Positions 43,960 to 48,136 of a stretch of DNA of 64,000 bases are shown in pieces; within the stretch, counting starts at the first letter, position 1; every line of letters starts with the position of its first letter. Both the position numbers and the translations under genes were made by a program. The DNA comes from Gammaproteobacteria bacterium (GTDB lineage: Bacteria; Pseudomonadota; Gammaproteobacteria; Pseudomonadales; Azotimanducaceae). The DNA lies in contig VXNM01000010.1 in the NCBI GenBank assembly GCA_009840545.1, positions 372,001 to 436,000 of the forward strand. The letters run 5' to 3'. The notes under the pieces are model-generated. The model was not told the origin of the DNA. It did no database searches and worked only from the letters and a program-made list of their open reading frames with translations.

Positions 43960-45741
43960 ATGCAAACCGAAACCATTGACATCTTAAAGAATCAGATCTC
44001 GGAACTCATCGCGAAGGGTCGTGAACAAGGCTATCTCACATTGGCCGAAATCATCGACCACATGCCCGATGACACTGGAGAAGAAGAGCGCATCGAAGAA
44101 ATCACCGCGCTCTTGCTTGACCTTGGAATCCGAGTTGGCGAATCTGCACCCGATGCGGAAGACTTGCTCACCTCTAGCGAGTCTACGACGGATGATGTCG
44201 AAGCGGACGAAGCCGCAGCTGCACTTGCCGCAGTCGAAAGTGAAGCGGGTCGCACAACCGATCCAGCACGCATCTACATGCGAGAAATGGGAAGCGTCGA
44301 ACTACTCAATCGACAGCAAGAAATCGAGATTGCCAAGAAAATAGAAGAGGGCATGAGAGATGTCTTGTCAGCAGTAGCACATTTCCCGGGCACTGTGGAC
44401 CATCTGTTGAAAGCCTACGCCCATGCAACCGAGATTGAACGTCTCGAGACTCTGTTAGTCGGTTATCTCGATCCGACTACGGAGGTGCCTCGAGCTCCTG
44501 TCATCGATGCGTCTAAGTCCAATGGAACCACTACGACCAAGAGTAAAGGACCTGATGTCACGATCGCCAAGAAACGATTTGCTGCGCTGAAACGGGCACA
44601 CAACAAGTATCGAAGAACTGTCAAGCAGACTGGGGATCGCAAGAAGAGGAATTGTCGAGAAGAACTTGAGAAGCTTGCGGATGTGTTCTCGAGATTTAAG
44701 CTCGTGCCCATTCATCATGACGCTCTGGTGGAAATGCCTCGAAAAGCAGCGGACTTGGTCGAAGCCCAAGAACGAACGTTCACGAAACTCTGTCGAAAAG
44801 CCGATTTGCCATTGGACGAACTTAACACTAACTTTGAACAGAAGCTAAGAACTCGCTCGTGGCTGGATCGACTGATTAGGGAAAACCATTCCTTCAGTCG
44901 AAAACTGGAGCGCTACAAACCCGATATTCTTCGATCACAACGAAAGATCCAGGAAATTAGGGATCAGACCGGGCTGACCGTCCAGGAACTTAAAGACCTT
45001 AAGAACCGAATCGTCGCAGGAGAAGAGAAAACTCTGGAAGCGAAGAAGGAGATGGTCGAAGCCAATCTTCGATTGGTCATATCAATCGCAAAGAAATACA
45101 ACAATCGCGGCCTGCAATTCCTCGACTTGATCCAAGAAGGGAATATTGGTCTGATGAAGGCGGTCGACAAATTTGAGTACCGCCGAGGCTATAAATTTTC
45201 TACTTACGCCACTTGGTGGATTCGGCAGGCAATCACCCGTTCAATATCCGATCAATCTCGAACGATCCGGATCCCCGTTCACATGTTCGACCTAGTCAAC
45301 AAACTGAATCGAATTCAGCGTCAGATGCTTCAGGAGCTTGGTCGAGACCCCATTGCCGACGAACTTTCCTCACGGATGGAAATTTCCAGCGATAAAGTCC
45401 GGCACATTCAAGGAATCAGCATTCAGCCTGTATCAACGGACTCTCCGATTGGAGAGGACGAGGACAGCAACATCGGCGACTTCTTGAAGGACCAAGACGT
45501 GGAGACTCCAATGGAATCCACAGAAGTCCGCAACCTCAAGGAAGACATCGACGCCAAATTGGCAATTCTGACCGTACGAGAAGCAAAAGTACTGCGAATG
45601 CGCTTCGGACTTGGTCAGAACAGTGAATACACGCTTGAAGAAGTGGGTCGAGTTCTGAGCGTGACTCGCGAACGTATCCGACAGATTGAAGCGAAAGCGC
45701 TCCGCAAATTGAGACAACCGCTCCGAATCTGGAACACCTAA
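43960..45741 (+). CDS. rpoD: RNA polymerase primary sigma factor, copy 1
   Basis: 593 residues. Region 1.1 starts [20 protein letters not shown]. Region 1.2 has [11 protein letters not shown], a long non-conserved segment follows, then region 2 ([20 protein letters not shown]; the [14 protein letters not shown] core), and region 4 has [20 protein letters not shown]. It lies in the classical dnaG-rpoD position. Compared with the second copy, region 2.4-3 reads [12 protein letters not shown] where copy 2 and E. coli have IETIN, and the C-terminus stops 10 residues after the helix-turn-helix, shorter than usual. A terminator follows. Confidence 0.95.
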
Positions 45742-45806: not shown

Positions 45807-46168
45807 TGGTGGGCCCACCAGGACTCGAACCTGGGACCTATGGATTCACGATCCAAGTGTTTCTTGGAATTTCCGACGGTTTCCCATCGGCGCGGACTAT
45901 CTCACCACCCGAGGCGAAGCAAGTTCTCCGTGCACGGGTGCAGGACGCTCTAACCTGTCATTAAGAACACTCGAATTTCCGGTTGAGAATTCAGTTCTCA
46001 GGTAGTCTCTGCACCTTCCAACGGTGTACCGCTGGCTTGGCTCAGGGTTGCCTTGACGGATAAAATCCGGTTTAGGTTTCCCTGAATTCATCCTGTTCAT
46101 CTTCCCGATTTCGCAGGAAGCGCACCATCCGATGAGTCCACTGCTCTAACCAACTGAGCTATGGGCCC
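45807..46168 (-). tRNA. tRNA-Ile(CAU), interrupted by a group I intron
   Basis: The 5' exon is 46132-46168 (37 nt) and the 3' exon 45807-45846 (40 nt, including an encoded CCA). Joined, they fold as a 77-nt tRNA: a 7-bp acceptor stem GGGCCCA/TGGGCCC, a D arm with AGCTCAGTTGGTTAGAGC, an anticodon stem TGGA/TCCA with loop CTCATAA, and a T arm with GGTTCGAGTCC. The anticodon is CAU. The stem, the GGACTCATAATCC anticodon arm and the G1-C72 pair favour tRNA-Ile2, read as AUA after lysidine modification, over initiator tRNA; elongator Met is the alternative. The intron must be removed for function. Confidence 0.9.
45847..46131 (-). ncRNA. Group I self-splicing intron in tRNA-Ile anticodon loop
   Basis: 285 nt, inserted between U36 of the anticodon and A37. 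The exon ends in U and the intron ends in G, the group I rule. A guide GUG at intron nt 7-9 (46123-46125) can pair with CAU of the anticodon. Core elements match the Azoarcus tRNA-Ile intron: GGGAAACCTAAAC (about 46069-46083; P4/J3-4), GGCAACCCTGAGCCAAGCC (about 46034-46052), GTGCAGAGACTACC (46001-46014; P7/P3) and GAGATAGTCC (45894-45903; P7). It encodes no homing endonuclease. Self-splicing is expected. Confidence 0.9.
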
Positions 46169-46330: not shown

Positions 46331-48136
46331 ATGCACACGACGGAAACAAAATCCCATCAGGCGCGTATCAAAGAACTGATCGCCAAGGGTCGCTCTCAAG
46401 GCTATCTCTCCTTAGAAGACATCAATGATCACTTCCCTACCGAGGTGCTCGATGTCGAACACTTCACCGAAATTGTCGATATCCTTGACCGGCACGGCAT
46501 TGTTGTCAGTGAACTTGCTCCTGAAGTGGACGATCTGCTGTCAGGCGACGACTCCACCGACGACCTAGATCCAGAGGAATTGGCTGAGGCTATCGCTGCG
46601 GTCGAGTCGAGTTCTGGGGGAACGACCGACCCCGCTCGGCTCTATATGAGTGAGATGGGGCACTATGGGTTACTCACACGGGACGCTGAAATTCTCATTG
46701 CCACACGCATCGAAAACGGAATGCGGTCCATGATGTCTGCGGTGGCACATTTTCCAGATGCTGTCGATCTCTTGCTTGACAAGTACGATCAATTATTCAA
46801 GGAAGATCGACTCGAAAGATTTCTTGCAGGTTACCTGTGTCTCGTGGAGGATATACCCCCGGCTCGTAGAGTGAATCCAGGCGAGCAAAGCAATTCTCCT
46901 ATGACCCGCAAGCGTCTGAATCGAAGCCTCGCTAAGAACAAATTTACCTACCTGAAATGTGCCAGAACACGGCTGCAAAATGAAATGGGAAACAGTGGGG
47001 CGGCGAGAACCAAGGCTTCTCGTGACGCTCGTGCTTCACTTGCCGATAAGTTCTCGGAGCTCAAGATAGTGCCGGAGTTTTTTGAGGAACTAGTGGAAAT
47101 TCCCAAGCAGACTTTGCGAACGGTCCGAAATCTTCAAAACCGGATTCGCAAGCAGTGCGAAGACGTAGGTATGTCCCGCTCGGTATTTCACGAGAAATCA
47201 CTTGGACACGAGACCTCCACCTCATGGATAAACAATCTCATTGCTGAGAGTCGACCGTATAGCCGACGTCTCGAACGGGCCAAACCCGAGATTAAGAAGA
47301 CACAAAGTCGATTGGCATCAGCACTCAAGCGAGCGCGATTGACCATTGACGAAATCGAAGAACTCAATCGGCGTATCCAGGAAGCAGAGGAACAGGTTCG
47401 TATAGCAAAGAATGAAATGGTCCAAGCCAATCTGAGATTGGTCATTTCCATCGCGAAGAAATATAGCAACCGCGGGCTTCAGTTCTTGGATCTAATTCAG
47501 GAAGGGAATATCGGCTTAATGAAAGCTGTGGACAAGTTCGAGTATCGTCGAGGGTACAAGTTCTCTACCTACGCTACGTGGTGGATACGTCAGGCGATAA
47601 CTCGGTCCATCGCAGATCAAGGACGTACGATTCGGCTTCCGGTTCACATGATTGAAACTATTAACCGACTGAATCGAATCGAACGTCAAATGCGGCAAGA
47701 ACTAGGAAGAGAGCCGTCAGCCACTGAACTCGGAAAGCGCTTGGACTTGCCAGAGTACAAAGTGCTTCGAGTACAGAAAATTGCAAAGCTCCCGGTATCG
47801 ACAGAAGACTCGGTGGGCAGCGACGACGAAGCGCATGTAGGAGACTTCATCAAAGATCAAGCGGTGGAAACTCCAACTGAATTGGCGGAGCGGGACGCGC
47901 TTAGAGAGGCCGTGGGAGACATGCTTTCCGATTTGTCTGTGCGAGAAGCGAAGGTTCTTCGCATGCGATTTGGCATAGGGTCGAACAGCGACCAGACACT
48001 GGAAGAAGTCGGGCACAACTTGCACGTTACCCGAGAGCGCATCCGACAAATCGAGTCGAAAGCACTGCGCAAACTCCGAAAGAACCCAACCAAGCATCTT
48101 CGTGACTTCCTGCACGAAGATTCCGAGGCTAGCTAA
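46331..48136 (+). CDS. rpoD: RNA polymerase primary-type sigma factor, copy 2
   Basis: 601 residues with the complete primary sigma layout: region 1.1 ([20 protein letters not shown]), [11 protein letters not shown], the long non-conserved domain, region 2 [53 protein letters not shown], and region 4 with [18 protein letters not shown] followed by a full C-terminus. Region 2.4-3 is closer to E. coli RpoD than copy 1 is. Both copies are similar across their full length, so they arose by duplication, though not recently given their many differences. It lies beyond the tRNA gene with its own leader. Confidence 0.92.

Follow-up and report, generated by a model that had tools for sequence, protein, structure and literature searches.

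The 64,000-nt stretch of gammaproteobacterial DNA analyzed here (the window) carries the only known tRNA-Ile2 gene of its genome. This gene is split after U36 by an intron that has no open reading frame and is, in all likelihood, group IA-like and self-splicing, and phages are the likely carriers of that intron. Its close relatives lie at the same spot in phage tRNA genes, which suggests that viruses ferry introns between bacteria.

A split tRNA-Ile(CAU) gene beside rpoD

The interrupted gene, which is of the ileX type, occupies positions 45807..46168 on the minus strand, as do all of its parts described below. Its 5' exon (46132..46168, 37 nt) terminates in ...CUCAU, of which the final base is U36, and its 3' exon (45807..45846, 40 nt) has CCA encoded. 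ARAGORN called the joined exons as a complete 77-nt tRNA with a CAU anticodon, and the acceptor stem is intact. This agrees with an initial annotation of the DNA, which had assembled a tRNA-Ile(CAU) of that length, with its CCA, from exons of 37 and 40 nt. The intron (45847..46131) begins with C and ends with G. The earlier description of a 285-nt insert that follows U36 and ends in G holds, coordinates included; the gene is read from the minus strand.

The Rfam group I intron model, RF00028, matched at 46143-45873 with 64.0 bits against a gathering score of 50 (E 6.6e-14, cmscan with all of Rfam), so that the covariance model also came out in favor of the first reading. No other Rfam family reached its gathering score in the 64 kb. 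When run without introns, ARAGORN found no tRNA anywhere in the window. When introns were allowed, it labeled the gene Gln(CTG), a label that we rejected because it sets the same 285-nt intron one base early. We fixed the boundary after U36 because of the group I rule that a U ends the 5' exon and a G ends the intron. A GUG guide able to pair with CAU had been proposed too, and it is present. This internal guide, GGUG (46123..46126; recognized by eye, with the position computed), is the 3' strand of P1 and has CAU|C as its partner, a pairing in which a U.G falls at the splice site (by eye). Among the ATG-started frames of the intron, the longest has 67 codons. Therefore, no homing endonuclease is encoded, as had been thought.

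ARAGORN calls every CAU tRNA Met. The assembly has separate genes for elongator Met (L006) and initiator Met (L018), and no second Ile(CAU) was found among its 38 RF00005 matches (150 of 180 first-look candidates were scored). A pattern for the uninterrupted Ile2 gene had zero matches in the assembly, and the genome has a gene for TilS (TIGR02432, 164.1 bits, cut-off 93.6). We read the interrupted tRNA as Ile2 because of the separate Met genes, the lack of another Ile(CAU), TilS, and synteny with rpoD. It looks like the single AUA-decoding tRNA gene of an assembly rated 96.47% complete.

The neighboring rpoD gene (43960..45741, plus strand, with Pfam sigma-70 domains) has the tRNA on its 3' side and on the opposite strand. 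Two full-length sigma-70 (rpoD) genes in fact flank the tRNA, at 43960-45741 and 46331-48136, and both match regions 1.1, 1.2, 2, 3, and 4 in Pfam. Among the 45 bacterial loci with the intron, the window included, 34 have rpoD 99 to 621 bp away and the tRNA on the rpoD 3' side, and rpoD is missing from the examined stretch in the other 11. The tRNA is inverted relative to rpoD in 4 of the 34, namely in three genomes of the window's genus and in Gammaproteobacteria bacterium SB0677_bin_6 (SB0677). An uninterrupted CAU tRNA was found in 52 of 80 dnaG neighborhoods of named bacteria, and there was none in 28. Of the 77 exon positions in the window, 75 agree with the uninterrupted tRNA that G262 and G284 carry, and 67 agree with that of G244.

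We propose that the gene would be expressed as follows. The guide GGUG would pair with CAU|C, and a guanosine would be bound in P7. The RNA would be cut after U36, and U36 would then be joined to A37, with release of the intron and restoration of the anticodon loop. The tRNA-Ile2 would be lysidine-modified by TilS, and AUA reading would be possible only after splicing.

Fold and class of the intron

Alignment A1 contains 45 of the 50 introns of the window's kind that were extracted. L120, L331 (a duplicate of the window), L156, L140, and L152 were omitted on account of length, a long P1, or an unreadable base. The helices scored were P1, P2, P3, P4, P5, P5a, P6, P6a, P7, P7.1, P7.2, P8, P9.0, and P9, with P3 and P7 treated as a pseudoknot. 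Standard pairs filled 96.5% of 2902 cells in the 45 introns, compared with 83.6 ± 0.4 in shuffles. When partners were slid by 1 to 3 columns, at most 44.4% were paired, a comparison in which the structure is favored over its slid versions by having been drawn on one member, L149. Double-sided changes occurred in 41 of 66 pairs (24.9 ± 1.9 in shuffles), and the five observed pairing measures were reached by 0 of 500 shuffles; kinship alone can lift sequences above shuffles without structure. The double changes in P3, P6a, P7.2, P8, and P9 are the stronger part of the covariation evidence.

The helices are 95 to 100% paired except for the two weakest, P2 (89.9%) and P5a (77.9%). In P3, the 5' strand CAGGA (46091..46095) has UCCUG (45945-45941) as its partner; 225 of 225 cells are paired, and three of the five pairs show double changes over the 45 introns. 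In P7, the 5' strand GACUA (46003..46007) and its partner UAGUC (45899-45895) are also paired in 225 of 225 cells. P7 is invariant over the 45 introns and is therefore without a covariation signal. Between P7 and P3 lies a 49-nt P7.1/P7.2 domain (45954..46002). Each of its helices is 95.5% paired, and double changes are found in one of four pairs of P7.1 and in all four pairs of P7.2 (together 5 of 8, over the 45 introns). In alignment A1, the window intron also has an extra 3' hairpin, CCAAG/CUUGG (P9.x, 45853..45867), and hairpins resembling it were seen by eye in L118, L119, L138, and L155.

All of 49 introns, the window's included, are preceded by CAU, have G as the last base, and are followed by AAUC. 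All 49 also have a [GT]GTG guide in their first 75 nt. The joined exons gave a CAU tRNA in 48 cases, the exception being the gene of phage Muenster, which has a large D loop (ARAGORN). Without introns, ARAGORN detected 0 of the 49 interrupted genes, and this oversight explains some Ile2 genes that are missing from annotations. The introns span 231 to 367 nt, and the longest ATG-started frame in any of them is 78 aa, so none has its own endonuclease.

This conservation bears on whether the insert might no longer self-splice and need a protein, or whether the gene might be dead and AUA be read otherwise. With the assembly 96.47% complete, another copy of the tRNA could be missed, which would suit a dead gene. 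However, P7 is invariant in 45 introns, the terminal G and the guide are kept in 49 of 49, the acceptor stem and CCA are intact, and TilS is present. We consider a loss of self-splicing or of the gene very unlikely. The intron is very probably active, and in an essential gene.

P7.1 and P7.2 are a mark of group IA. The initial annotation had called the intron Azoarcus-type and had offered its P4, P7, and P3 words as the signature of that type. These words proved to be motifs of the general group I core, and the class was not borne out either. P7.1 and P7.2 are present, and they are listed among the features that separate group I classes in the portion of a review that deals with them (PMC3984707). 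Two profiles built from introns only also disagree with it. The own-kind profile was trained on 42 introns and excludes the phage Ile introns, the window intron, L120, L152, and L331. The other holds 12 introns (8 from Leu(UAA), 3 from Arg(CCU), and 1 from Ile at a different site) and excludes L002, L128, and L139. We take this second profile to be IC3, from the insertion sites, the absence of P7.1/P7.2, and the known features of the class, and we let L139 stand in for Azoarcus. At this Methylotenera locus, an intron of the other kind is inserted at the identical site, after U36 of tRNA-Ile(CAU), with P3 directly after P7 and no P7.1/P7.2 (by eye). The own-kind profile gave 188.6 bits for the window intron and 20.0 for L139, whereas the Leu/Arg-type profile gave 38.1 and 88.4. 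A version of the second profile with the tRNA exons included gave 40.0 and 104.0.

It is thus extremely improbable that the intron is of the Azoarcus type (IC3) and came from betaproteobacteria. Such an origin would fit the gene, the U36 site, and the similar core words. L139 shows that the other kind does occupy the U36 site, and the window's own genome has a Leu(UAA) intron of that kind. Even so, the P7.1/P7.2 helices are not only present but covarying, the two profiles differ as described (188.6 versus 38.1 bits), and the closest matches in the phage collection are phage introns. The Leu(UAA) intron in question, L002 (1476-1810), is the second tRNA intron of the genome and splits its tRNA after U34. 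It scored 32.7 bits with RF00028, below the cut-off, and 145.0 bits with the intron-only Leu/Arg profile. Together with the window intron, it therefore makes this one genome with two kinds of tRNA intron.

Among phage introns, the own-kind profile gave 82.3 bits for the terminase intron of Vibrio phage 11895-B1 and 52.4 for one in a T7-like polymerase gene. It did not recover the T4 td and nrdB introns, which are annotated as "group 1A," and the second intron of Vibrio phage locus L147 scored only 7.9 bits. Because these three fail, the IA label rests on P7.1/P7.2 and on the terminase and polymerase scores. Therefore, we word the label with some reserve, and the window intron would be classed as group IA-like.

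Distribution and inheritance among bacteria

In the surveys, the intron turned up repeatedly in gammaproteobacterial families that have been little studied, and it was absent from most of the rest. In the window's family, RF00028 matched in at least 21 of 61 sampled genomes, a lower bound obtained with stricter filters. When the loci were read individually, the window's intron was found in tRNA-Ile(CAU) in 19 of the 61. G244 and G248 have introns only in 23S genes (by eye). The uninterrupted Ile2 pattern occurred in 27 of the same 61 genomes, and 15 had neither state. The interrupted and uninterrupted sets share zero genomes (P 6e-7), and genera g116 (G253 versus G279) and g121 (G282 versus G258) each contain both states.

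A strict pattern matched at least 23 of 369 genomes of the class, in 17 families, the window's own included. All 23 places were confirmed by extraction, and a reversed control pattern matched one genome of the class. In a phylum-wide sample, the strict pattern matched at least 1 of 398 genomes, the window's own. These pattern counts are lower bounds because exact words were demanded. RF00028 also matched in 7 of 40 named genomes examined (of 80 fetched). The window-kind Ile intron is present in SB0677, Pseudomonadales bacterium N2_Bin_Bin_95_1, Acidiferrobacterales ES_Gamma_002, and Proteobacteria bacterium GL140_5_metabat_18, and in Woeseiaceae MO_140.B34, where it is broken off by the contig end (by eye).

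The initial annotation had expected such an intron to be unusual in a gammaproteobacterium, and this was half right. It fits the phylum-wide count of 1 in 398 and an older review, whose tabulation of known bacterial tRNA introns, as far as the relevant part goes, names cyanobacteria, alphaproteobacteria, and betaproteobacteria only (PMC4033280). However, it does not fit the 23 of 369 genomes in the class, and the survey of relatives at the same site, an idea of the same annotation, found the intron in 19 of 61 family genomes. One section of another report counts 36 genomes in which an fMet or Ile2 gene was missed through group I introns, and it names Ile2 introns for Acidovorax and Burkholderia (PMC8450103).

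Several other introns came to light in the survey. In L114, L116, L121, L122, L123, and L130, tRNA-Leu(CAA) is split in the anticodon loop, at U32/U33 by eye. These Leu(CAA) introns are from four other families of the order and are related to the window intron, with 41.4 to 73.1 bits in the window-kind profile (five tested); G097 has two copies. At L127 (1459-1783), tRNA-Ile(CAU) is split between U33 and C34 by an intron of the Leu/Arg kind (by eye). L133, L134, and L126 are introns of tRNA-Arg(CCU) in the order, and in two cases the genome (G179 or G039) carries the Ile intron as well. L128 (1048-1828) is a tRNA-Leu(UAA) intron of 694 nt, roomy enough for an inserted reading frame. The introns of L131, L129, L160, and L163 are in 23S rRNA genes (by eye). 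By eye, L160 holds two introns close together, and those of L131 and L129 each have a coding region for a LAGLIDADG-like protein. The best group I intron of the order survey, L113 (106.9 bits), is in a gene for a T7-like phage DNA polymerase in a bacterial assembly (by eye).

We built a tree of 55 introns over 234 columns, comprising 48 Ile introns, five of the six Leu(CAA) loci, and two phage or prophage protein-gene introns. L331, L152, and L295 were left out, and the phage Ile introns in the tree number four. Support of 80 is reached at 23 of 52 nodes of this short tree, which is taken as unrooted. A split with support of 95 separates the 48 Ile introns from those of Leu(CAA) and of phage protein genes, and another, at 97, sets 43 of the 44 bacterial Ile introns apart from all other introns, phages included. 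The 44th, L115, comes from a bacterium in a different family. It pairs with the Klebsiella phage intron as its sister (98), and this pair is nested in a clade of phage Ile introns (99). L115 has rpoD on the same contig, and its exons are unlike phage exons (by eye). The window intron pairs with that of SB0677 (99), next with that of G261 (99), and next with those of its two congeners (95). The window's genus is not a clade for the intron because G261 belongs to another genus, and this placement is not predicted by plain within-genus inheritance. If the protein-gene and Leu introns are used as the outgroup, the phage Ile introns flank the base of the bacterial clade, which would weakly favor transfer from phage to bacterium.

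Alternatively, the intron might have resided in chromosomes since an early ancestor of the gammaproteobacteria, passing down vertically with many losses, and the phages might have picked up host tRNA genes. The orthologous position next to rpoD that 34 of the 45 bacterial loci have in common speaks for this history, as do the grouping of 43 of 44 bacterial Ile introns at 97, the inverted tRNA common to the window's own genus (three genomes) and SB0677, and the absence of a long reading frame from 49 introns. Against it stand the two states within genera g116 and g121 and the grouping of the window with SB0677 and G261 and not with its congeners (99). L115 also lies inside the phage clade (98 and 99), though its exons differ from phage exons by eye. 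Weighing these points, we find such long residence rather unlikely. The history is better read as local inheritance superimposed on repeated transfer.

Phage copies and known systems

A blastn search with the intron against 50,697 phage records returned 40 records at E ≤1, of which 0 cover 80% of the query. One match is amid the tRNA genes of the jumbo phage Klebsiella phage Muenster, at a place left unannotated in the record. There, a tRNA-Ile(CAU) is split at the window's base step (by eye), and RF00028 matches with 104.1 bits; the joined exons were not called as a tRNA by ARAGORN. Four further Klebsiella phage records match the intron and exon edges, three at 99.6 to 100% and one at 91.0% over 92%.

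Of six pattern matches in IMG/VR, three (L286, L288, and L290) are CAU tRNAs split likewise. The other three (L285, L287, and L289) have no tRNA and were treated as chance. Of 23 core matches, one (L295) is a CAU tRNA split likewise, and the other 22 are without a tRNA (ARAGORN). The viral-contig pattern ATAGTCCN{20,50}GTGAATC was too loose, and its matches were discarded. Among the matches listed for a further pattern, there were 118 loci (L352 up), of which 5 passed a motif filter and 0 of these 5 had a tRNA (ARAGORN). The contigs of L286, L288, L290, and L295 all carry additional tRNA genes and are all classed as viral by IMG/VR. They show only modest signs of a viral nature, with matches to tail fibre proteins in L290, to a sigma factor family in L288, and to an ATPase family in L286. 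In L295, two other proteins were tested and gave no viral match.

The five phage CAU-tRNA introns score 78.8 to 152.1 bits with the own-kind profile and 39.0 to 50.7 bits with the other (introns only). A TilS-like gene is beside the tRNA in two of the five phage loci (L290, 117.6 bits, and L295, 111.7 bits; cut-off 93.6). TilS in a phage was reported earlier, for MIJ3, in a passage of another study (PMC6892783). An endonuclease-like gene is near the tRNA in three of the five (Muenster, L286, and L295). The Muenster HNH gene is about 240 bp from the split tRNA, with one tRNA between them, and matches phrog_2255 (5.5e-29). The L286 protein matches phrog_15137 (2.4e-13), and the L295 protein matches phrog_1271 (4.4e-8). 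In Pfam, the Muenster protein has only a NUMOD3 motif, and the L286 and L295 proteins, which are 35% identical over 96 residues, have nothing above the cut-off. At L295 (1426-3165), the split CAU tRNA, the endonuclease-like gene, and the TilS-like gene adjoin one another, and the end of the endonuclease-like gene overlaps the 5' exon of the tRNA (by eye).

The window intron belongs to a single lineage, which occupies one site both in many gammaproteobacterial chromosomes, where it interrupts ileX next to rpoD, and in the CAU tRNA genes of phages. Phages that have such genes would be the likely carriers between hosts, and the endonucleases encoded beside the phage tRNA may drive homing. Collaborative homing by free-standing endonucleases is described in one part of a review (PMC3984707). 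A large-phage tRNA-Ile(CAU) cassette, consisting of the intron with TilS, a free-standing endonuclease, or both, might repeatedly seed ileX by this route, a reading that we offer tentatively and rate somewhat below an even chance. If it is true, phage tRNA genes would be a reservoir and a shuttle of tRNA introns, and two unrelated kinds, IA-like and Azoarcus-type, would have converged on one base step.

The same 2014 review, in the sections that touch on these questions, sees little evidence for bacterial introns moving between bacterial species, considers phages possible vectors of some Bacillus recA and nrd introns, and places all phage introns observed by then in protein genes, even though phages have many genes for tRNAs (PMC3984707). 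A further paper assigns more than half of viral group I introns to IA2 and suggests phage-host transfer (PMC11835236). Among the papers listed by a search that covered few subscription journals, we found no report of IA-like gammaproteobacterial tRNA introns or of phage tRNA introns. Here, phage tRNA genes and the sole known Ile2 gene of many bacteria are interrupted at one and the same base step by introns of one lineage. One chromosomal copy is nested among phage copies, which makes a vehicle for tRNA-intron transfer testable. The lasting interest lies on the phage side, where the introns share both site and lineage with the bacterial ones and where endonuclease-like genes are suitably placed.

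The window intron can be compared with four known kinds. The Azoarcus tRNA-Ile(CAU) intron (IC3) interrupts the same tRNA, as do the Ile2 introns of Acidovorax and Burkholderia, and both the Azoarcus and the window intron are small and without an endonuclease. The Azoarcus intron is inserted after U36, as is the window intron. However, the window intron differs from the Azoarcus type, with L139 as the proxy, by P7.1/P7.2, by sequence lineage, and by its gammaproteobacterial host. Cyanobacterial tRNA-Leu(UAA) introns are bacterial tRNA group I introns as well, inserted after U34, and belong to another lineage than the window's. Among the phage group IA introns of protein genes, the terminase intron matches the own-kind profile, and P7.1/P7.2 is a feature of the class. 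These phage introns interrupt protein genes, whereas the window's interrupts a tRNA gene, and those of T4 have diverged too far to be recovered with the profile. The phage CAU tRNA introns have both site and lineage in common with the window intron, but their genes, unlike the window's, are in tRNA clusters, some of them beside a TilS-like or endonuclease-like gene.
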